From Cellulophaga sp. (GTDB taxonomy: Bacteria; Bacteroidota; Bacteroidia; Flavobacteriales; Flavobacteriaceae), in assembly GCA_030731855.1 (NCBI GenBank), contig JANQTG010000189.1:1-64000 (forward strand): a stretch of 64,000 bases of DNA, given 5' to 3'. The position numbers and the translations under genes were made by a program. Below are positions 23,653 through 35,362 of the stretch, piece by piece. The notes under the pieces were generated by a model. It was given only the letters and a program-made list of their open reading frames with translations, did not search any database and was not told the DNA's origin. Each line of letters begins with the position of its first letter. Positions within the stretch are counted from its first letter, which is position 1.

Positions 23653-23660
23653 TACATTTG
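23653..23660 (+). promoter_or_regulatory. Bacteroidota-type -7 box (TACATTTG) upstream of the Pel-like locus
   Basis: TACATTTG 25 nt upstream of the ATG at 23686; no well-spaced -33 TTTG found. Confidence 0.4.
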
Positions 23661-23685
23661 CACCTCAATATTTAAGCTTAAGATA

Positions 23686-24699
23686 ATGCGGTTTTTAAAA
23701 ATGGTTAGTGTGTGTCTGTTTTCAGTATCTGGTTGTGCGGCTAATACAGGTTTAAGTTCTATGACAAAAGATAACCAAATTACCTCCCAAAATGACACGA
23801 TTAAATACCGCGACGAAATGCGAAATTTTGTCATTAAAATTAGTGAATATGCTAAAAGTACAAAACCTAATTTTGCAATAATTCCTCAAAATGGTATAGA
23901 ACTAGTTACGTTAAACGGTGAAATTTCTGGCTCACCAAGTACCGCTTATTTAAAGGCTATTGATGCGAATGGACAAGAAAGTCTGTTTTATGGATATAAC
24001 GGCGATAATAAGGCAACTCCTAAAGACACCAAAGATTACACTGTAGATTTTCTGAATGTTTCTAAAGCCAACGGCAATACAATTTTAGTGACAGATTATT
24101 GTTATTCAGCTCATAAAGTTTCAGAATCGTATTCAAAAAATGCCGCTTTAGGGTTTGTCTCTTTTGCAGCACCAGAACGCGATTTAAACCTAATTCCTAA
24201 TAAAGACTTTCCTATTTTCAATGAAAACACAGAAGATATTTTAACCATAAAACAGGCCAAAAATTTCTTGTACTTATTAAACCTAGAAAATTTTGATACT
24301 AAATCAGAATTTTTAAGCGCTATTCAAAACACCAATTATGATGTTATTTTAATTGATTTATTTTTTAATGACGGACAGCAATTTACTAGCGAAGAAATAT
24401 TAAAATTAAAAACAAAGGCCAACGGTTCTGGGCGTTTAGTTGTTGCATACATGTCTATCGGAGAAGCCGAAGAGTATCGTTTTTACTGGCAAAAAGCTTG
24501 GAAAAACACAAATCCGCTATGGCTAGATAAAGAAAACCAAGATTGGAAAGGTAATTTTAAAGTAAAATATTGGAATGCTGATTGGCAAAAAATAATATTA
24601 GGCAGTGAAAATGCCTATTTAGATAAAATTTTAAACGCTAATTTTGACGGTGTTTACCTCGATATTATTGACGGTTTTGAATATTTTGAAGAAGAGTAA
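23686..24699 (+). CDS. TM1410/MJ1477-type GH114-like glycosidase (endo-alpha-1,4-polygalactosaminidase-like), apparently circularly permuted
   Basis: YAKSTKPNFAIIPQNGIEL in the N-terminal half; YDVILIDLFFNDGQQFTSEEI...VVAYMSIGEAEEYRFYWQKAW...WKGNFKVKYWNADWQ...FDGVYLDIIDGFEYF at the C-terminus. Confidence 0.85.
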   Translation: MRFLKMVSVCLFSVSGCAANTGLSSMTKDNQITSQNDTIKYRDEMRNFVIKISEYAKSTKPNFAIIPQNGIELVTLNGEISGSPSTAYLKAIDANGQESLFYGYNGDNKATPKDTKDYTVDFLNVSKANGNTILVTDYCYSAHKVSESYSKNAALGFVSFAAPERDLNLIPNKDFPIFNENTEDILTIKQAKNFLYLLNLENFDTKSEFLSAIQNTNYDVILIDLFFNDGQQFTSEEILKLKTKANGSGRLVVAYMSIGEAEEYRFYWQKAWKNTNPLWLDKENQDWKGNFKVKYWNADWQKIILGSENAYLDKILNANFDGVYLDIIDGFEYFEEE

Positions 24700-24851
24700 A
24701 CCATTAAAAATGTGGTATTATTCGTCAAAAATGCGTTTCAAAGAGTAATCTTAGAGATTAAACTAATAAAAGTTACTATCAACCTATTTAAGATTTTCTT
24801 TGTGTTCTATATTTTGGAGCTTTTAAACCAAAATTAGTTAGAGAATTAACC

Positions 24852-26375
24852 TTGAAAGAGAAAATACAAGTTTTGCTAATTACCGAGGGTACTTACCCTT
24901 ACAACACCGGTGGTGTTTCTACATGGGCACATAGTCTTTGTTCTGACGTTCGCAATGTAGACTATACTCTATACGCTATAAACGCAGTGGTAGAAAGCAA
25001 AACTCAATATCCAATAACACCATCAGTTAAAAAAATAATTCAGGTGCCTATGTGGTCGCCAGAAGAGCCTTTTGATTGTGTTGATTATGATGTAAAGTAC
25101 TCAAAGATTCTAAATAGTCGAGAAAATACCACTGAGCTTAAAATAGCGAACGAATTTTGTCCCGTTTTTGAGAAATTTATCAATGAAATTTATGCAGAAA
25201 AACATTCCGTAAAAATTTTAGATGATTGTTTTAAAGCTATGTGGAAATTTTTTCAATCGTACGACTATAAAATTACCATGACGAGTGAAGCTGTTTGGAA
25301 CTCATTTGGCAAAATAATTAAAGCCAACTTAAATCAAACCGAATTAGAAGCCATTACTCTTGAGCATTTAACCACAGGTATGCGCTGGATTTATCGTTTT
25401 TTAATTCCCATAGCTATTGATGTGCCCAAAGTAGACATATCGCATATTACCATTTCAGGTATTGCGGTTTTACCCGCTTTAGCTTTAAAATACAAATACA
25501 ATACGCCCATGATGGTTACAGAGCATGGGGTTTTTATTAGAGAAAGATTAATAGCGATTAGTGCATCAGACTATTCTTATTTTTTAAAGAAAATGTTGAT
25601 TAACTTCTCAGAATGTATCACCAAATTGGTCTATCATCATTCTGAAATAATAATTACAGTAAACAAGTTTAACATGACTTGGGAAAAATATTATGGCGCT
25701 GATGTAAATAAAATTAAAGTGATTTACAATGGGGTAGACCCTAACTTTTTTAAACCAGGAGAAAAACCTTCACATTTAAAAAATATACCTACTGTTGTTG
25801 CGGCTGCTCGTATTTTTGATTTAAAGGATATTTTAACCATGATCCAAACTGCAAATGTGGTTAGAAAAACAATCCCGAATGTGCAGTTTTTTGTCTATGG
25901 TAATAAAGATGCAGTACCCGAGTACACCGATGAATGTGAAGCTTTAATAAAAGAATTAGGCGTCGAAAACAATTTTTTCTTAAAAGGATTTCATGACCGT
26001 CCGGAGCTTTTATTTGCGGAGGGTGATATTTCTATTTTAACTTCAATATCCGAGGGTTTTCCGTATACGGTAATTGAATCTATGAGTTGCGGAATTCCTG
26101 TAGTGGCTACCGATGTTGGGGGCGTTTCAGAAGCTCTAGACGATTCTTGTGGGTTTATTTGTAAGCCTAAAGATTATAATGAAATTGCAGAAAAAGTCAT
26201 CACATTATTACAAAACGAACAATTGAGACGTTTTATGGGCGAAAATGCTAGAAAAAAAATAATAGAGAATTTTACTATTGAAAACTTTATTAGCGCCTTT
26301 GAAGATACTTATGAAGAACTTCATACAACGCAAAAGACTTTAAGCGAAAAATCATTCACTAAATACGAATTTTAA
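24852..26375 (+). CDS. pelF: PelF-like GT4 glycosyltransferase (TTG start)
   Basis: LLITEGTYPYNTGGVSTWAHSLC; VIYNGVDPNFFKPGE; TSISEGFPYTVIESMSCGIPVVATDVGGVSEAL. Confidence 0.9.
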   Translation: MKEKIQVLLITEGTYPYNTGGVSTWAHSLCSDVRNVDYTLYAINAVVESKTQYPITPSVKKIIQVPMWSPEEPFDCVDYDVKYSKILNSRENTTELKIANEFCPVFEKFINEIYAEKHSVKILDDCFKAMWKFFQSYDYKITMTSEAVWNSFGKIIKANLNQTELEAITLEHLTTGMRWIYRFLIPIAIDVPKVDISHITISGIAVLPALALKYKYNTPMMVTEHGVFIRERLIAISASDYSYFLKKMLINFSECITKLVYHHSEIIITVNKFNMTWEKYYGADVNKIKVIYNGVDPNFFKPGEKPSHLKNIPTVVAAARIFDLKDILTMIQTANVVRKTIPNVQFFVYGNKDAVPEYTDECEALIKELGVENNFFLKGFHDRPELLFAEGDISILTSISEGFPYTVIESMSCGIPVVATDVGGVSEALDDSCGFICKPKDYNEIAEKVITLLQNEQLRRFMGENARKKIIENFTIENFISAFEDTYEELHTTQKTLSEKSFTKYEF

Positions 26376-26410
26376 AAAAACAAAGTTATTCATATTGCTT
26401 CCCCCCATTC

Positions 26411-28018
26411 ATGAAGGTACATCAAGAAAATACAGCCCATATAAGTCAAAAGGTCATCCAAAAAGTGGGTAATCCTGTGAGCGAAATGGTAGTTTTGGCA
26501 ACCTTAGAATCCTTCGGGATTAGAAATAAAGATGTCGACACTGATTACGGTTTTGACTCTATTTTTGATATGGCGATGTATATTTTTAAAGACCTAAAAC
26601 AAAAGCCAATTGCAGAATTAAGAAACTTAAACGAGTTAAAGCCACCTAAAAAAGGAGATAAGTCTATTCCTATTTCTGATTATTTATGGATAAAGGCAAA
26701 ATTATTAGTACAGTATTATCCTTTGGGCATTTTTCACTTATTTCCTATCGTCATACAAATTGTCTGTATTATTCTTTTTGGATATTCCCTTTGGACTTTC
26801 TTAGGTTTTAATGTAGTACAATCTACAGCGGTAGTTTTTGGTGTAATTTTTGGCTTAATTATTTCCGGAGGCTATGTTCAGGTTTTAGGAAGGCAAGCTT
26901 CGTTTTATTGGCATCACCAAGAGTATCAGAAATCTAAAATTGTAGTTTACAAGCTTATAAAATCGGGTGTTAAAGGAAACGTAGTGGTATTTGCAGTTTT
27001 AGCAATTGTGAATTTTTTATTCAATTTATATCCTTTTAGCTTTTTCTTAATAACGTTTATTTATGCCTTTTTAATTGGCTTATTGCTCTTGGTTTCGGCA
27101 CCTTTTCATACCATTAAGCATCGTTGGGCAATTTCTGTTGCTATTTCTGTGGGTACACTGCTTGCACTTTCTCTTAAATTATGCACTACGTTACACATAT
27201 TTTTTACCCATTGGATAGGTTTATGTGTTGCAATACTAATTTCATTAATTTTCTTAAAACTTATTTTTAAGAGTAAAATTAAAACGGCTAAAACGGTACA
27301 ATCAAACCCTAAAAAAATTATGGTGATCTATAGAAATTACAAATACTTTTTCTATGGTGCCTTAATTTATGTCTTTGTTTTTTTAGATCGTTTGTTGGCT
27401 TGGTCGGCACCATTTGGGATATCGCATAAATTTATTTTCTTATATGAGAAAGACTATGAAATAGGGATGGATTTAGCCATACTTATATTTTTTATGTTGG
27501 CAGGGGTGTTAGAATATGCTATCGCCGCTTTTAGTAAATTTCTCGATATTAAACAAAAAAATATTAAATTTTTAGATGCAAGAGAATTTAATAAAAGTCT
27601 CTATAAAATGTACTGGGGACACATTTTTTTATTGTTTTTAACCGCCATAGGTACCACAACTTTTGTGTACTTAATTGTAACACAACCTTGGGGTTATCAA
27701 GCAAGTTTTGGGGAAACTTTAAATCCTTTAAGTATTAAAGTTTGTGTTTTAGGTGGTATTGGCTATTTTTTTCTGACTTGGGGCATGTTAAATGCATTAT
27801 ACTTATTTACCCTCAATCAACCATCAGCGCCATTAAGAGCCTTGGTAATAGCAACAAGTATTAATTTAGGAATAGGTTTTATATGTAGTCGATTTTTAAG
27901 TTATGAATATAGTGTTATTGGGATGCTTGTCGGGGCTTTTGTTTTTATGGTACTTACCATTAAAACGATACATGTATTTTTTAAAAAATTAGATTATTAC
28001 TACTATGCGGCATATTAA
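26411..28018 (+). CDS. pelG: PelG-like exopolysaccharide transporter/flippase with N-terminal soluble extension
   Basis: Polytopic; follows pelF; SGGYVQVLGRQASFYWHHQEY...; long N-terminal region (~95 aa) before the first TM. Confidence 0.72.
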   Translation: MKVHQENTAHISQKVIQKVGNPVSEMVVLATLESFGIRNKDVDTDYGFDSIFDMAMYIFKDLKQKPIAELRNLNELKPPKKGDKSIPISDYLWIKAKLLVQYYPLGIFHLFPIVIQIVCIILFGYSLWTFLGFNVVQSTAVVFGVIFGLIISGGYVQVLGRQASFYWHHQEYQKSKIVVYKLIKSGVKGNVVVFAVLAIVNFLFNLYPFSFFLITFIYAFLIGLLLLVSAPFHTIKHRWAISVAISVGTLLALSLKLCTTLHIFFTHWIGLCVAILISLIFLKLIFKSKIKTAKTVQSNPKKIMVIYRNYKYFFYGALIYVFVFLDRLLAWSAPFGISHKFIFLYEKDYEIGMDLAILIFFMLAGVLEYAIAAFSKFLDIKQKNIKFLDAREFNKSLYKMYWGHIFLLFLTAIGTTTFVYLIVTQPWGYQASFGETLNPLSIKVCVLGGIGYFFLTWGMLNALYLFTLNQPSAPLRALVIATSINLGIGFICSRFLSYEYSVIGMLVGAFVFMVLTIKTIHVFFKKLDYYYYAAY

Positions 28019-28823
28019 ACTTTTTTATTTTTTATTGCCTTTTTTGGCGACCGCTCAGAATGCTACTAAAAGCGCTAAGACAGATAGTTTTTTTATTTGT
28101 TATGGAAAAATTATGCCCGAAAAAGTATTTGGTTATGATGTGGTTATTTTAGAATCTCAGTTATATAATACCGATGAAATTAAACAATTTAAAGCACAGA
28201 ATAATACGGTTATTGGGTATATAAGTCTAACTGAAATTCATCCTACGTCTACCTTATACGAGAAAATCAAAAACTATACGTTTGGTAAAAATGATATTTG
28301 GGGAAGTTATTATATTGATATCGCAAAACCGCAAGCACAAGAAATTATCTATCAAGAAGTAGATAGCATACTACAAAAAGGTTTTGATGGTTTGTTTATG
28401 GACAACTTAGACAACGCTTCGCAATGGGGTGTTTTAAAAGATCATAAGTGTAGTTTAGTCCAATTAGTAAAAGAAATTAAAAAAAGGCATTCTTCTATTT
28501 ATTTAATGCAAAATGCTGGACTTTTTGTCGCTAAAGATTTAAAGAATACTACCGACAGTATCTTAATCGAGTCTGTAATGACCGCTTACAATTTTGAAAA
28601 AAATGAATATGCATTTAGAGAAGATACTTCAAAAAAAAATCTACTTCAAGAGCTTACTACATTAAAAAAAGAATGTAAAAAGCAGATTTATATTTTGGAA
28701 TATGCTGCATCAGAAAAAATGAAAGAAACGATAGAAACTTCGTTATCTAAAACTACTTTTTCTTTTTCAGTTGCCAATATAGATTTACAGCATATTCCTG
28801 AATTTAAAAATATAAATAATTAA
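28005..28823 (+). CDS. GH114/PelA-hydrolase-like secreted protein (canonical order)
   Basis: Signal peptide ...LATAQN; FGYDVVILESQLYN; TVIGYISLTEIHP; WGSYYIDIAKPQAQE; KGFDGLFMDNLDN; SIYLMQNAGL. Confidence 0.82.
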   Translation: MRHIKLFYFLLPFLATAQNATKSAKTDSFFICYGKIMPEKVFGYDVVILESQLYNTDEIKQFKAQNNTVIGYISLTEIHPTSTLYEKIKNYTFGKNDIWGSYYIDIAKPQAQEIIYQEVDSILQKGFDGLFMDNLDNASQWGVLKDHKCSLVQLVKEIKKRHSSIYLMQNAGLFVAKDLKNTTDSILIESVMTAYNFEKNEYAFREDTSKKNLLQELTTLKKECKKQIYILEYAASEKMKETIETSLSKTTFSFSVANIDLQHIPEFKNINN

Positions 28824-28825
28824 CT

Positions 28826-30805
28826 ATGTTTTTATTTGATTCCGTTCTTCTTGGACCTTTACGTATGCTAATGCTCTTTTTTGGAGTGTTGTTAGTACAT
28901 CAAATAATTACAAGACAAGCGATAACAAACTATACGTTAGATTACATAGTTCCGCGCTTAGCAATATATTGTGCAAGCGTACTTATTTTAATTTTTGTAT
29001 TAATTCAGATTAATATGTACGATATGTTTTCGTTATTATTAATTTTATTGATATTGTTGATTCTTGTTTATTTTCAGTCTAAAAATCCATTTCATATTAT
29101 TAAAGGGATCAACGCCAAAAGAAAATCATTTTTATTAAACTTCTTTAAATTTATTGAACGAGACATTAGCTTTAAAAAACTTTTTAAGAATAATGAACGC
29201 TATTTATATCCGAGAAAAATAAATTTTATTCTTGTTTCTGCCTTTGCTTTAGGCCTTACCACATTTATTTCTCGATATATTTTTCTGAAAAACGATTTGT
29301 ATACCCTTTCTGATTTATGGATTAAAAATTTAGATAAAATAAAGGCATTTAATACTGGGAGCTGGTTTCAAAAAGGACTAGAAGTTAATGGAGAACTTGC
29401 ATTCATTAATTTTTATGCTAAAATAACAAGTACTAGCGATGAAATGGCCATGCATTCTTTTGGTTTAATTGAAAGCTTCGGATTAGCTATAATTTTATAT
29501 TGGTTAGTAAAAAACTTGGTTAAATCTCAGTTTAAAGCTCCAATAATAGCGGTATTATTTTTTGCAGTATTCTACAGGTACTTACCTATAAATATTAATT
29601 TACTTTTAGAACACAATCCACTATACTTCGCATTTTGTTTTGCCTTACCAGCTATGTTATTTACGGTAAAGCCAAGAATATTTAAAGGTACTGAAAGGTC
29701 TTTTTTTATAGCACTTTTGTTATTATACTTAGCCATTAGTCTTACCAGTTTATTTGTGTACGTAATACTATTGCCTTTATATTTTGTCCCAGCTTTAGTT
29801 TTAAATCTGAATAAAAATTCAAAATTTGTACTAAAAAGTATCTTAGCGTATTTTTTAAGTTTGGCTATAAGTTTCGGTGTTTATTATTTAGCGTCAATTT
29901 ATACATCGCAATCTTTTAAGGAGTTTTTAATAACCAGTTTTTTACAAGTAAATTCATACACCTATTTTCCTCAGTTAATTGTACCTCTAGATCAGCTTTT
30001 GTTAATTTATACTATTGTAGGTTGGTTTACGGCAGGCTTCTTAGTGTTCCTAGTGTATAAGAATAGGAGGAAGTGGATGCCCGCCTTGGTATTTCAATTG
30101 TTTTTTAATGCATTTATGTTGTTAAACAAAATAAATTCTATTTGGTTTGATAAAGATTTATACTTTCAATCTTTAGCCGTTTTATTAGTTATTTCATTTG
30201 GTATTTTGGTAGGTATAGTCGTTTATTTTTTCAAAATCACCATCCCTAAAAAGCCAGTACTTAGAGCTATTAGTTTAAGTATCTTTTTTGCCATATTATT
30301 AATATTTTCTTATTTAACCAACGGATTTTATGATTATAACACGAAAGAATCAGAAGTTTTAAAGGCCGATATTTTAAAGGTGTATGATGAGCTTTCAAAC
30401 GACTACTTGCCTTATTCTTACGCAGTGGTAAACCAAGCTTATGGGCAAAGCATTAGTGCTAATATGCACCATTTTATAACCTATGACGATTTTATCACAA
30501 ACTACGTAAAAAGAGATTCTATTTACCAAATAGTTAAAGATAATAAACAGGTGATTAAAGATCATCCAGAATACATATTGCCCCAAAGTGTTTTTGTTTT
30601 TATCGCAAAAAATGCTAAAGAAAATTCAAAATATGATTTAGCTACTTCAGAAACTGTTTTAAGTGTATTAGAACAACAACTGGCACAACTTAAAAAAAAG
30701 GGTAGAAACATAGCCCTTTTCTATCAAGACGATTATATGCAGGTTTATCAAATTATAAACAAAGAAAAGGCTTCAAAAATCGATGATTTAATTTTTGATT
30801 TTTAG
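28826..30805 (+). CDS. large polytopic membrane protein of the Pel-like locus, C-terminal soluble domain; function unknown
   Basis: 659 aa, many TM segments then ~160 aa soluble tail (HHFITYDDFITNYVKRDSIYQ...NIALFYQDDYMQVYQI); 2 nt after the preceding gene. Confidence 0.75.
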   Translation: MFLFDSVLLGPLRMLMLFFGVLLVHQIITRQAITNYTLDYIVPRLAIYCASVLILIFVLIQINMYDMFSLLLILLILLILVYFQSKNPFHIIKGINAKRKSFLLNFFKFIERDISFKKLFKNNERYLYPRKINFILVSAFALGLTTFISRYIFLKNDLYTLSDLWIKNLDKIKAFNTGSWFQKGLEVNGELAFINFYAKITSTSDEMAMHSFGLIESFGLAIILYWLVKNLVKSQFKAPIIAVLFFAVFYRYLPININLLLEHNPLYFAFCFALPAMLFTVKPRIFKGTERSFFIALLLLYLAISLTSLFVYVILLPLYFVPALVLNLNKNSKFVLKSILAYFLSLAISFGVYYLASIYTSQSFKEFLITSFLQVNSYTYFPQLIVPLDQLLLIYTIVGWFTAGFLVFLVYKNRRKWMPALVFQLFFNAFMLLNKINSIWFDKDLYFQSLAVLLVISFGILVGIVVYFFKITIPKKPVLRAISLSIFFAILLIFSYLTNGFYDYNTKESEVLKADILKVYDELSNDYLPYSYAVVNQAYGQSISANMHHFITYDDFITNYVKRDSIYQIVKDNKQVIKDHPEYILPQSVFVFIAKNAKENSKYDLATSETVLSVLEQQLAQLKKKGRNIALFYQDDYMQVYQIINKEKASKIDDLIFDF

Positions 30806-30883
30806 GCTATTTAAAAATATTACACATCAAAAAAGAATTTTAGATATCTAATTGGTATTTACAGTATTAAAAAGAAAGTTTGA

Positions 30884-33800
30884 ATGAAATTAATAAAATT
30901 TTTAAGTATTCTGCTTATAACAATTCTTGTGACTAGTTGCCAGCAAGATTTATATAAGTTTACCCAAGAATTTAGCATTCCTGAGGTAAACCAAGAACCG
31001 CCAGTAATTCAGTTTATTCATAATAATGATGCTGAAAGTGCTTTTGAAGAAGCCAATCTTAGAAAAGTGGCGGATTATACTAAAATGCCTTACGAAGCTA
31101 TTTCAGTAACAGATTTCAATAAAAACAAAAACATACGTTTATCAACAAGAGTCCTTTGTATTTATGACCCGCAAAGTATTACCGATGTAGCTGTAGATAC
31201 CCTATTGTCTTTCGTAGCCAAAGGTGGCACCTTAGTTTTTACAAAAACAACAACAGATAAAAGATTTGGTTTTCTTTTAGGGTTAAACCCTGACGCCACT
31301 ATGGAAATCGATGCTACTGCTAACGGTTATTATTTTAAAGAAGCCATATTTCCTGGAAAAAAGAATTTTTCTTTAGCCAAAAAACCCTACCCTCATAAGG
31401 GGCTAAAAGACCATAATTTTTCTGACAAAATAAAAATTATGGCGACTGCTCAAGACGCAAAAAATTATCCGTTAATAATTCAAAATGAAATAGGTAAGGG
31501 AAAGGTAATATTTTATAATTCTACCGATATTTTATCTAAAAATCTTCGTGGTTTAATGTTTTCTAATGTTTTAAACGGATTGCAAGGTATTCCTTACCCA
31601 ATAGTAAATGTTGCAACTATTTTTTTAGACGATTTTCCATCACCCATTTACAATATTAATAAAGAGCCCATAAAAAAAGAGTTAGGTGTAACGGTTGCCG
31701 ATTATGTGACAGAATATTGGTGGAACGATATGAAAAAACTAGCCAAAGAGGAGAATATTGATTATACAGCGTATGTAACTTTTGATTATAATGCTTACGT
31801 AATTCCGCCTTTTACCTTTAAAGAATGGGATAAAAATACCTTTCAAAAAAATGGTATACAACAACAAAAAAGTAGTTGGTTGGGCCGAGATATTTTAGCG
31901 AATGGTCACGAACTTGGTTTTCATGGGTACAACCATGTGTCGATAACCAAAGACAATTGGAAACAAAATGAATACATAGGTATTGCCTTAAACACAGCCA
32001 TTAAAAAATGGAATACCTTAGAATTTAAAGATTTACCAGTTAGTTATGTGCCACCATCAAATATCATAGATAGTGTTGGTATATCAGAATTGCATAAAGG
32101 TATGCCTAGTCTGCGCTATATGCAAAGTACGTATTTAGGGGATTTAGAAGAAGGTGGTAATAGAGAATTTGATCCTGAACCTTACAACAACGCTTTATTT
32201 GGATACCCAAGAATAAGTAGTGGTTTTTATCTTGAGCCTTTCAATGAATTTGCAATTGAGTCAATGTATTTATATACAGGTATCTGGACGCATTTTGTGC
32301 ACCCAGATGATGTGTATCAAATTCCGGATGCATCAAATTCTAAAACAAGTGGAGACTATGAATATAGAAATGCAAATAGCCTACCATGGTATTCAAAAGG
32401 CACAAAAACAGGATTGTTAGATACCTTTAAAAATCATATTACATCGTTTAAAAAAGCGCATCCAATGTCGCGTTTTTTAACCGCTAAAAAAGGTTCAGAA
32501 TTGGTAATGGACTGGCGCTATGCTTATTTTTCGCATTTACGGGTAGATGGTAATTATATTGTTGAAAGCGATGCGGGTTTTAAAAATAAACAAGAACATT
32601 TTTGGTTGCTCTATGCCAGTAACGAAAATCAAAAACTTATTGATGCAGATTTACTTTCGCAACAAGCCGATTTTAAAAAAACACCCTTTTTGTATGGTAG
32701 TTTGTACACCATAAAAACACCTAAAACCTACATTTCTTTACCCGATCTACGCTTAAAAGGGTATAATGCAGGTTTGAATGATGGCGCCGAAAAAAATAAG
32801 GCTTTTGAAGCTTCAAAAGACTATTTTTTAGCAGAAGAGTTGTTAATGCCTCTTGTTGAAAAAGTGCGAAAGTTGGTGGAAGAAAATAAATTAAGAGAGG
32901 CAAGCGATCTACTAATTAGTCATATCAAAGAAGACAAAACACCGATTAGTAAAAAAATATGGACAGACTTAGCCACCTATTTAATGTGGCAAAAAAATAC
33001 CACAAAAATCTGGGAGGTGTTAGATGCCTATTACACAGAAAAACCAACGAAAGAAAATGCTGAGTTAGCTTTTGATATTTCAAAAATAGCAGATTATCCA
33101 AGCCTTACAGTTCGAGAAAAATGGCTTTTTAGACAAATTTCTGAGGGCACAACAAATAAAGAGGTACTAACCAGTTATGTAGACTATTTTAACTCCGATA
33201 CGTATAAAAACACCGTGAATATCGCTTTAGAACGTTTAGTTGAACTTTACCCAAATCCGGTAAACAATAAAAATTATATAGTGCATTTAATGACCTATGA
33301 TTTAGAGCAATTAATACCTTCATTAAATAAACTAGCTGTTTGTGATGCAGCATATGCAGATATGGCTACTGATATTACTTGGGTTTATGCTAATAAATTT
33401 CATTTTGACAAAGCCATAGCATGGGAAAAGTGTAGTACCGGAATTACACAAGAAACCTTAAACAGTTGGATTGTTAAGAGTGACTCTTTTGAAAGTTATA
33501 AAAAAACAGATTTTCCTTTTTACATGACTATTTTAGTAGCTAATGATGAAAAAAATGCTTTAGATAATCTTCAAAATATACAGCCTTGTCAGCCTAATTT
33601 AATCCCTATTGCTAAAGAAATTGCTTTAACCTATAGCAACTCAAAATTATATAGAGAAGCGTTGAAATGGTCAGAATGTGCAGAAGGCTTGTCTATTACC
33701 TCAAAATTATCATGGTTATATGAACTTAAAGATTATCAAAGTTTAGTAACTACCTATACTGCTTACAGTAATGAAAACCCAGAAGATTACAATGCAAAAA

Positions 33801-34888
33801 TCTTTATGAGTGTATTATATATTTATATGGGCAAACTTAAAGAGTCAGCACAAATAACGGCTAATTTGCCAGAAACCTTAGATAAATCAATCTTACAAAA
33901 AAGAATTAATGACGATATTAATACGCTAAATGCCACACAACAGAAAGACATTTTAGATAATTATGGGGAGTTATTATTTCCTCAAATGCGTAAGAATATT
34001 AATAAAAATATCCGTCAAGAAGAAGGTAATTCCATTAGTTTAAATAGTTACACCATAAACGATAGGTTAGAGCCTACAACGGTTTCAAACATTTTAAGTT
34101 ATAATTTTTTCGATAAAAAACGAAATATTCATAGTATTTCTGCCACTCAAAGCAACATGTTTCCGATTCTATTTTTTCCTGTAGATGATGAAAATAAACG
34201 ACATGATTTATTTGGACTAGAATACCGATTTAAAAATCAAAATTATAAACCCATCCGTTATTTTTTAAGTGCAAGAGTAGAGAGAGATAATTTTGAAGAA
34301 TTTTATTATCATGCAGGTGCCGGAATTAACTTTTCAAAAGCGGCTCAGTTTTCTTCTTTTCAATTAGATTTTTTTCCTGTGCGTTCTGGACCAGGCCATA
34401 GTTTAGATCTATACCGTGGAGAATTTAATAATTACAATGAGTTTACCATTTCTAACAGAGCTAAACAAATAGTGGCATTTCAGGCGAATTATTATACCGA
34501 TGAGGAAGTAGAAGGTTTGGTTTTAGGAAGAACTGAGCTGGCTATAGTTAAGCAAAAAAAGTTTAGCTTTTCTCCTTATATTGAAGGTTCATTTAGCAGA
34601 GGAACTGTAGATAAACGAGACGGGTACCCGTATTGGATGGCTTTAGAACGTCTTTACGGCGGCGGCGGTGCTGTAGTAAATATAGGCAATGAAACTACAA
34701 ATTTTAGAATGACCTTGGATGCATCGATGTTTGCAGAAAGCCAACAGCCAAATTTTGAGCGTTATACGGGGAATATAAGTTTTAGAATTAAAAACTTTAC
34801 CACTATTAAAGGGGCGTTTGAGGTGTACACTATCGAGAATTTTTTCTCTAACATTTTTCAATTAGGCATAGTTTATGATTTTAAGTAA
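30884..34888 (+). CDS. lipoprotein fusing PelA-like/DUF2194 polysaccharide deacetylase, TPR-like helical region and C-terminal beta-barrel (PelB-like)
   Basis: 1334 aa; lipobox LVTSC; IFLDDFPSP (Asp motif) and ELGFHGYNH (HxxxH-type motif); helical repeats ~33.0-34.0 kb; alternating amphipathic strands to C-terminal GIVYDFK. Confidence 0.75.
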   Translation: MKLIKFLSILLITILVTSCQQDLYKFTQEFSIPEVNQEPPVIQFIHNNDAESAFEEANLRKVADYTKMPYEAISVTDFNKNKNIRLSTRVLCIYDPQSITDVAVDTLLSFVAKGGTLVFTKTTTDKRFGFLLGLNPDATMEIDATANGYYFKEAIFPGKKNFSLAKKPYPHKGLKDHNFSDKIKIMATAQDAKNYPLIIQNEIGKGKVIFYNSTDILSKNLRGLMFSNVLNGLQGIPYPIVNVATIFLDDFPSPIYNINKEPIKKELGVTVADYVTEYWWNDMKKLAKEENIDYTAYVTFDYNAYVIPPFTFKEWDKNTFQKNGIQQQKSSWLGRDILANGHELGFHGYNHVSITKDNWKQNEYIGIALNTAIKKWNTLEFKDLPVSYVPPSNIIDSVGISELHKGMPSLRYMQSTYLGDLEEGGNREFDPEPYNNALFGYPRISSGFYLEPFNEFAIESMYLYTGIWTHFVHPDDVYQIPDASNSKTSGDYEYRNANSLPWYSKGTKTGLLDTFKNHITSFKKAHPMSRFLTAKKGSELVMDWRYAYFSHLRVDGNYIVESDAGFKNKQEHFWLLYASNENQKLIDADLLSQQADFKKTPFLYGSLYTIKTPKTYISLPDLRLKGYNAGLNDGAEKNKAFEASKDYFLAEELLMPLVEKVRKLVEENKLREASDLLISHIKEDKTPISKKIWTDLATYLMWQKNTTKIWEVLDAYYTEKPTKENAELAFDISKIADYPSLTVREKWLFRQISEGTTNKEVLTSYVDYFNSDTYKNTVNIALERLVELYPNPVNNKNYIVHLMTYDLEQLIPSLNKLAVCDAAYADMATDITWVYANKFHFDKAIAWEKCSTGITQETLNSWIVKSDSFESYKKTDFPFYMTILVANDEKNALDNLQNIQPCQPNLIPIAKEIALTYSNSKLYREALKWSECAEGLSITSKLSWLYELKDYQSLVTTYTAYSNENPEDYNAKIFMSVLYIYMGKLKESAQITANLPETLDKSILQKRINDDINTLNATQQKDILDNYGELLFPQMRKNINKNIRQEEGNSISLNSYTINDRLEPTTVSNILSYNFFDKKRNIHSISATQSNMFPILFFPVDDENKRHDLFGLEYRFKNQNYKPIRYFLSARVERDNFEEFYYHAGAGINFSKAAQFSSFQLDFFPVRSGPGHSLDLYRGEFNNYNEFTISNRAKQIVAFQANYYTDEEVEGLVLGRTELAIVKQKKFSFSPYIEGSFSRGTVDKRDGYPYWMALERLYGGGGAVVNIGNETTNFRMTLDASMFAESQQPNFERYTGNISFRIKNFTTIKGAFEVYTIENFFSNIFQLGIVYDFK

Positions 34889-34951: not shown

Positions 34952-35362
34952 ATGAAAAAAATGTTATTTTTATTATTCTTGATGCCCATGACAACTTTAG
35001 CACAGCATACCTTAACTCTAAAAATTACCAACGTAAAGAACACGAATGGCGAAATTAGGGCAGCAATTTATGATAATTCCGAAGATTTTTTAAAGTTTGA
35101 TAAGGTTTTTAAAGCAGCAGCAGAAGATGCCAGCAAAGGAACCACGACATTAACGTTCAAGAATGTTCCAGTGGGCACCTATGCAATAGCCGTTTTTCAT
35201 GACGAAAATTCTAACGAAAAGTTAGATACAAATTTCGTGGGATATCCTAAAGAAGCTTTAGGATTTTCAATCGGAAAAATGAAAACCTTTGGACCGCCTA
35301 GTTTTCAAGAATGTGCTTTTAAGTTAGATGCTGATAAAGAACTTACGATTGAGATTAAGTAA
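34952..35362 (+). CDS. DUF2141 domain-containing secreted protein
   Basis: Signal peptide; NGEIRAAIYDNSEDFLK; VPVGTYAIAVFHDENSNEKLDTNFVGYPKEALGFS. Confidence 0.92.
   Translation: MKKMLFLLFLMPMTTLAQHTLTLKITNVKNTNGEIRAAIYDNSEDFLKFDKVFKAAAEDASKGTTTLTFKNVPVGTYAIAVFHDENSNEKLDTNFVGYPKEALGFSIGKMKTFGPPSFQECAFKLDADKELTIEIK

Follow-up and report, generated by a model that had tools for sequence, protein, structure and literature searches.

Pel-type exopolysaccharide loci are known from Gram-negative and Gram-positive bacteria, and the six-gene operon considered here, on the + strand of a 64,000-nt stretch of Cellulophaga sp. DNA (contig JANQTG010000189.1; hereafter the window), is compared with them. 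In Pseudomonas aeruginosa, pelABCDEFG encodes PelF, PelG, a PelA protein with a hydrolase and a CE21 deacetylase, an export module of tetratricopeptide repeats (TPRs) plus a barrel, and PelC, PelD and PelE. In Gram-positive pel loci hydrolase and deacetylase are as a rule encoded separately (PMC7112168), as in pelDEADAFG of Bacillus cereus, whose membrane-anchored PelADA (PDB 9zau) founded the families CE26 and CBM114, is a proven de-N-acetylase of oligomers of alpha-1,4-linked N-acetylgalactosamine (GalNAc) and is required for Pel (PMC13254593). The pel locus of Streptococcus intermedius includes a DUF4832 protein that is an active glycosidase and breaks up Pel aggregates; PelD of Streptococcus has no GGDEF domain, and these species have no known diguanylate cyclases (PMC12345266).

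We suggest that the operon in the window amounts to a complete Bacteroidota locus for a Pel-type exopolysaccharide, which most likely makes a partly deacetylated alpha-1,4-GalNAc polymer, and we regard this reading as well favoured. With pelABCDEFG the operon shares PelF, a PelG-like protein, a PelA-type hydrolase and a probable TPR-plus-barrel export module, but the functions of PelA lie in two proteins, CE26 stands in place of CE21, no PelC, PelD or PelE is seen, the probable exporter is fused to the deacetylase and a protein with a predicted GT-C fold is added. With pelDEADAFG it has in common PelF, a PelG-like protein, the CE26 deacetylase with its carbohydrate-binding module (CBM) and six catalytic or zinc residues, and the separately encoded hydrolase, whereas the Bacteroidota deacetylase is a lipoprotein-like fusion to TPRs and a probable barrel rather than a membrane-anchored protein, PelD and PelE are not seen, and the GT-C protein is extra. 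The PelADA deacetylase, a probable control without GGDEF and a nearby DUF4832 glycosidase (here in Flavobacterium loci) are common to the S. intermedius locus, which, however, keeps PelD (TM-GAF) and PelE, has no exporter and has no reported GT-C protein (PMC12345266).

Results

The features of the locus are as follows.

23653 to 23660, + strand: candidate Bacteroidetes -7-like box TACATTTG, a pattern match only
23686 to 24699, + strand: g1, GH191-type (TM1410-like) alpha-galactosaminidase homologue, predicted to be circularly permuted and accessory, with a lipobox close to the N-terminus
24852 to 26375, + strand: g2, PelF, GT4 glycosyltransferase (predicted polymerase)
26411 to 28018, + strand: g3, PelG-like flippase with an N-terminal extension of ~110 aa
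28005 to 28823, + strand: g4, PelA-hydrolase-like (GH166-like) glycosidase
28826 to 30805, + strand: g5, 659-aa polytopic protein with a predicted GT-C fold
~28826 to 29224, + strand: g5 N-terminal helices (AlphaFold2 model, topology)
~29225 to 30322, + strand: g5 GT-C core (AlphaFold2 model, PDB fold matches)
~30356 to 30802, + strand: g5 C-terminal soluble domain (AlphaFold2 model, topology)
30884 to 34888, + strand: g6, 1334-aa lipoprotein-like fusion of a CBM114-CE26 deacetylase, a TPR region and a probable outer-membrane barrel in a single open frame
30947 to 32320, + strand: DUF2194 part of g6, PelADA-type CBM114 plus CE26 (PDB 9zau match; catalytic residues D249, D250, H347, H351, H473 and D476)
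32801 to 33973 (approximate), + strand: TPR-like region of g6 (TPR_19 matches in orthologues; TPRs of the distant orthologue L148)
34001 to 34885 (approximate), + strand: probable beta-barrel of g6 (beta-moment pattern; weak PgaA_barrel match in L148)

The original prediction, made from the letters of the window, described six tightly spaced same-strand genes with overlaps or gaps of 2-152 nt, and the list of open reading frames agrees (23686-34888; successive gaps of 152, 35, -14, 2 and 78 nt). Of the span that it gave, 23653-34888, the end holds and the start does not: at 23653 there is a TAnnTTTG motif, 33 nt 5' of the first ATG at 23686. With 46 such motifs on the window's + strand, it counts as no more than a candidate promoter. 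Family calls were made with Pfam and NCBIfam profiles on the window proteins, and profile matches and PDB relatives agree with the GH114-like, PelF, PelG-like and second GH114/PelA-like proteins that had been named.

The same six genes occur in the same order in two related genomes, one of which (G012) belongs to the same genus as the window. When one genome per species was scanned with a PelG-like alignment as query, 80 loci were returned, most of them from Flavobacteriaceae and some from Roseivirga and other taxa. In 76 of them pelF, pelG, g4, g5 and g6 follow one another in this order on a single strand, with median intergenic gaps of 12, -14, 5 and 1 nt, and the remaining four are truncated where their contigs end; this recurrence argues that the arrangement is not due to chance. 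The predicted six-gene set is thus narrowed to a conserved core of g2 to g6, the first glycosidase gene being missing from most loci: counting the window, g1 precedes the core in the same orientation in 16 cases, is divergent in eight and downstream in two, is absent from the fetched stretch in 51 and has no room in four. Two of the locus records, titled as metagenome-assembled genomes of Bifidobacterium breve and Sphingobacterium thalpophilum (L020 and L043), bear flavobacterial-type operons and are probably misbinned or mislabelled contigs.

Because the scan had started from PelG, we also examined an independent sample of the phylum. Among 399 Bacteroidota genomes, 28 have the DUF3492 domain of PelF, and the same 28 have a strong DUF2194 match, which always falls within a frame of 1268-1641 aa without stops; a marginal DUF2194 match (30.8 bits) turned up in one more genome. 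The possibility that the g6 fusion is an assembly artefact was rejected, since the fusion occupies the same place, full-length, in 76 loci and its frame stays open over 1268 aa or more in all 28 PelF genomes.

The N-terminus of g6 matches DUF2194 with 234.8 bits, and its first 480 residues match PelADA (9zau) with an E-value of 1.7e-53 over 435 positions. The six g6 residues listed above, which are invariant in 54/54 orthologues, correspond in order to the catalytic and zinc residues D262, D263, H350, H354, H488 and D491 of PelADA, the pairing being read from the alignment with the chain offset computed by hand. In the PDB comparison the Pseudomonas PelA deacetylase was not matched from g6 up to E = 1. 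The TPR region of the window copy has no Pfam match, TPR_19 is matched in 15/45 orthologues, and L148, a distant orthologue, shows strong TPRs in eight TPR_14 stretches together with a weak PgaA-barrel match. The C-terminus has a strong amphipathic-beta pattern with 12 candidate strands (ratio of beta-moment to alpha-moment 1.55 vs 0.60 in the TPR region) and is probably an outer-membrane barrel, and a lipobox-like motif is present in 63/76 g6 copies. Taken together, these features make g6 look like a Pel deacetylase of Gram-positive type joined to an exporter of Gram-negative type.

The deacetylase of the fusion proposed in the original prediction is thus directly supported, its TPR and barrel parts being indicated indirectly, through orthologues and the beta pattern, and the idea of rearranged Pel modules with the deacetylase joined to an exporter-like module is upheld by the recurring g6. 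That the deacetylase was a piece of Pseudomonas PelA does not hold; it is of the Gram-positive CE26 type. Likewise, the split of hydrolase and deacetylase is correctly observed and not new (PMC7112168).

PelF (g2) scores 156.9 bits against the NCBIfam equivalog NF038011 (cut-off 100) and 205.9 bits against DUF3492. The PelG profile PF16933 aligns to g3 over profile positions 34-452 of 452 with 25.5 bits (cut-off 29); the orthologues in L019 (46.3 bits) and L148 (29.9 bits) exceed the cut-off and the others do not. The best solved relative of g4 is PelA (9cgy, E 1.4e-15; 5tcb, 3.9e-15), and D133 and E189, which align with the Asp and Glu of PelA and are invariant in 80/80 sequences, are what we take to be the catalytic pair from the known Asp/Glu of the GH166 family.

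The accessory g1 matches the GH114 clan (56.5 bits) and TIGR01370 (184.4 bits, cut-off 181.25). Its halves are swapped relative to TM1410: profile positions 213-336 correspond to TM1410 49-166 and positions 44-163 to TM1410 178-294. A truncated gene was considered and rejected, as the first three homologues share the same C-terminal end and both halves match TM1410 in swapped order. E98 and D326, the GH191 catalytic Glu/Asp on the TM1410-like barrel, are invariant in 28/28 sequences. Judged from these alignments, g1 is a circularly permuted GH191 homologue: it shares both barrel halves and the catalytic Asp and Glu with GH191 (TM1410; PMC12054363) and differs in the reversed order of the halves. 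A further putative glycosidase gene, of the DUF4832/DUF4874 type, lies in convergent orientation beside 29 loci; the one member that was examined ends in a tail for type IX secretion.

For g5, described in the original prediction as a large polytopic membrane protein, the membrane assignment is right, and structure prediction with AlphaFold2 and Foldseek adds what is the most unusual part of the locus. The protein has no convincing Pfam match and no sequence match in the PDB. An AlphaFold2 model from a three-sequence alignment reached a pLDDT of 45, and an alignment of 65 orthologues was used instead (pLDDT 85.1, pTM 0.85). The 25 best Foldseek matches of this model in the PDB are all GT-C proteins (oligosaccharyltransferases, DPY19, ArnT, AftA, AftD and ALG enzymes; E from 4e-7), with oligosaccharyltransferases best. 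Matches 1-24 have probabilities of 0.99-1.00 and match 25 has 0.89, whereas match 26 (0.11) is to an unrelated protein. The model thus gives g5 a GT-C fold, and since the TM-scores are modest (~0.3-0.4), the class is clear and the family is not.

The lysine-rich stretch 88-133 of g5 precedes the first core helix, which by the positive-inside rule places D157 on the outer side. D157, D442, Y520, H548, Y560 and D564, all predicted on the outer side, are invariant in 79/79 g5 sequences of the window's subtype. In all eight sequences from a second subtype and from the genome G302, the acidic residue of the first external loop, D157, is Asn or His, while D442 and D444 are retained in 7/8. With GT-C enzymes (PglB/STT3, ArnT, DPY19) g5 shares the predicted fold and topology and, in the window's subtype, the first-external-loop acid, whereas sequence similarity is not detectable and the loop acid is gone in subtype 2.

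As had been proposed, neither PelD nor any candidate for PelC is seen in the locus; no PelE is found among the core genes, a PelE profile not having been run on the genome. In ten carriers (the genome of the window and nine others, several of them complete) no match to PelD_GGDEF (PF16963) exceeded the cut-off. GGDEF domains were not detected in the genome of the window nor in 26/29 other carrier genomes. With PelD absent and no GGDEF detected in the genome, control of the locus by cyclic di-GMP (c-di-GMP) is unlikely. The control independent of c-di-GMP put forward in the original prediction gains the support of the GGDEF result, and it has a precedent in Streptococcus (PMC12345266).

The second subtype (L149, L151 and L155-L159), from more distant families, adds genes for a second DUF3492 GT4 enzyme, a histidine kinase and a response regulator, and has a gene of ~540 aa with an HD domain between pelG and g4; in several of these loci a pair of small genes also follows downstream (DUF2752 and TM2 in L149). 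The HD-GYP motif is degenerate in this subtype (e.g. HHEWVNGKGTP) and canonical in the homologue of G302 (HHEWVDGWGYP), a genome with GGDEF proteins. The Pel-like locus of G302 (L148) is interleaved with genes for a SpoIIE phosphatase, a STAS protein, a HATPase, a response regulator and a canonical HD-GYP protein, which suggests that partner-switching control replaces PelD there. We suggest that regulators may have been swapped or lost along with the loss of c-di-GMP signalling, an idea that G070 fits poorly, having GGDEF and yet a degenerate HD-GYP motif.

Among 18 congeners, the genome of the window included, two hold the operon and one a remnant, and for that reason the patchy distribution looks at least partly like loss. 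The remnant, in G017 (L007:11550-11741), consists of 48 codons of the g6 3' end with 65% identity at a partly syntenic site with neighbours kept, pointing to deletion of the operon in place. In the window a DUF2141 gene (34952-35362), which was considered as a possible PelC, lies directly 3' of the operon; it is not among the conserved neighbours, and a similar gene adjoins the g6 remnant in G017. In G428, a decayed second copy (L158:14774-18589) with fragments of g5, PelG and PelF and a full-length g4 lies beside the intact copy.

Plasmid pelF loci of Deinococcus, Thermus and Streptomyces (L160-L163) resemble those of Bacteroidota in having PelF, a deacetylase-like protein, GH114-clan enzymes and a PelG-like protein with the N-terminal extension of g3; neither the fusion nor a g5 homologue was found in them. 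In Deinococcus and Thermus the deacetylase is Agd3-like (CE18), the Streptomyces match being marginal. L161-L163, on Deinococcus and Streptomyces plasmids, represent a further Pel-like type with sugar-nucleotide genes and no recognisable PelD among the genes examined.

Discussion

Combining the domain assignments with the known Pel systems, we propose a scheme in which (i) PelF would polymerise UDP-GalNAc in the cytoplasm, (ii) the PelG-like flippase would take the chain over the inner membrane, (iii) g5, which occurs in loci with no PelD or PelE seen, would touch the emerging chain on the periplasmic side and either add a sugar from a polyprenyl-phosphate donor or act as a scaffold, (iv) g6 would bind the chain by its CBM, deacetylate it by CE26, guide it along its TPRs and export it through its own barrel, and (v) g4 and, where present, g1 would trim or release the polymer.

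Several points weigh against this assignment. PelG of the window scores below the Pfam cut-off, the TPR-barrel part of g6 has no sequence match to PelB, and a UDP-GalNAc epimerase is absent from the locus, the genome not having been searched for one. The biochemical side of the assignment is predicted, g5 may be catalytically dead given the Asn or His that takes the place of D157 in subtype 2, and, because the genome is a draft (90% complete, 246 contigs), the absence of GGDEF and PelD is not absolute. The divergent PelG, the second DUF3492 glycosyltransferase of subtype 2 and the extra GT-C protein would also fit a product other than Pel, namely a different and possibly mixed polymer of aminosugars made by re-used relatives of PelF and CE26; given that PelF, CE26 and the GH166-like and GH191-like enzymes all come from families acting on GalNAc or galactosamine polymers (PMC13254593, PMC12054363), we consider such a product improbable. 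The incomplete draft also leaves room for an ordinary Pel locus with PelD, PelE, PelB and PelC elsewhere in the genome. We reject this explanation, to which we give very little credence: neither GGDEF in this genome nor PelD_GGDEF above cut-off in any of the ten carriers was found, and every sampled PelF genome bears the g6 fusion.

Within the Pel-type reading, the role of g5 can be seen in two ways. It could be a catalytically dead GT-C fold that replaces PelD and PelE as a membrane scaffold holding PelF and PelG together, the polymer being ordinary Pel; g5 is a constant member of loci in which no PelD or PelE is seen, D157 is replaced in subtype 2 and G302, and the core genes include no polyprenyl-phosphate-sugar synthase, but the six residues invariant in the window's subtype exceed the expected needs of a scaffold, and we give this role somewhat less than an even chance. 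An active glycosyltransferase that decorates the chain or moves it to a periplasmic lipid or protein carrier, which we likewise regard as plausible at slightly under even chances, is favoured by the GT-C fold with oligosaccharyltransferases as top matches and by acidic and aromatic residues that never vary in the window's subtype and are predicted to face outwards, while the unconserved D157 in subtype 2, the modest TM-scores and a locus without a donor-making gene speak against it. More tentatively, Bacteroidota might make a Pel-derived heteroglycan or a carrier-linked GalNAc polymer, in which an active periplasmic g5 would work on the nascent chain, coupled to a single deacetylating and exporting protein and needing no c-di-GMP, PelD, PelE or PelC.

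A search of the literature, with coverage short of most subscription papers and of all preprints, found no Pel locus from Bacteroidota and no described Pel locus with a GT-C protein; three features appear to be new within that literature, namely the fusion of CE26 to TPRs and a probable barrel, the partner protein with a predicted GT-C fold, and the GH191 homologue with permuted halves. In Gram-negative bacteria the link between Pel deacetylation and export has been described as unclear (PMC13254593), and since both steps appear fused in g6, their coupling is directly testable here. As we read it, the locus would be a Pel machine that works with neither PelD nor any c-di-GMP synthesis that could be detected, equipped with a component of predicted GT-C fold that the Pel models found do not include, in a phylum without a described Pel-type matrix as far as the literature search went. 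It would represent a Pel-type factory that combines Gram-positive-style and Gram-negative-style parts across Bacteroidota.

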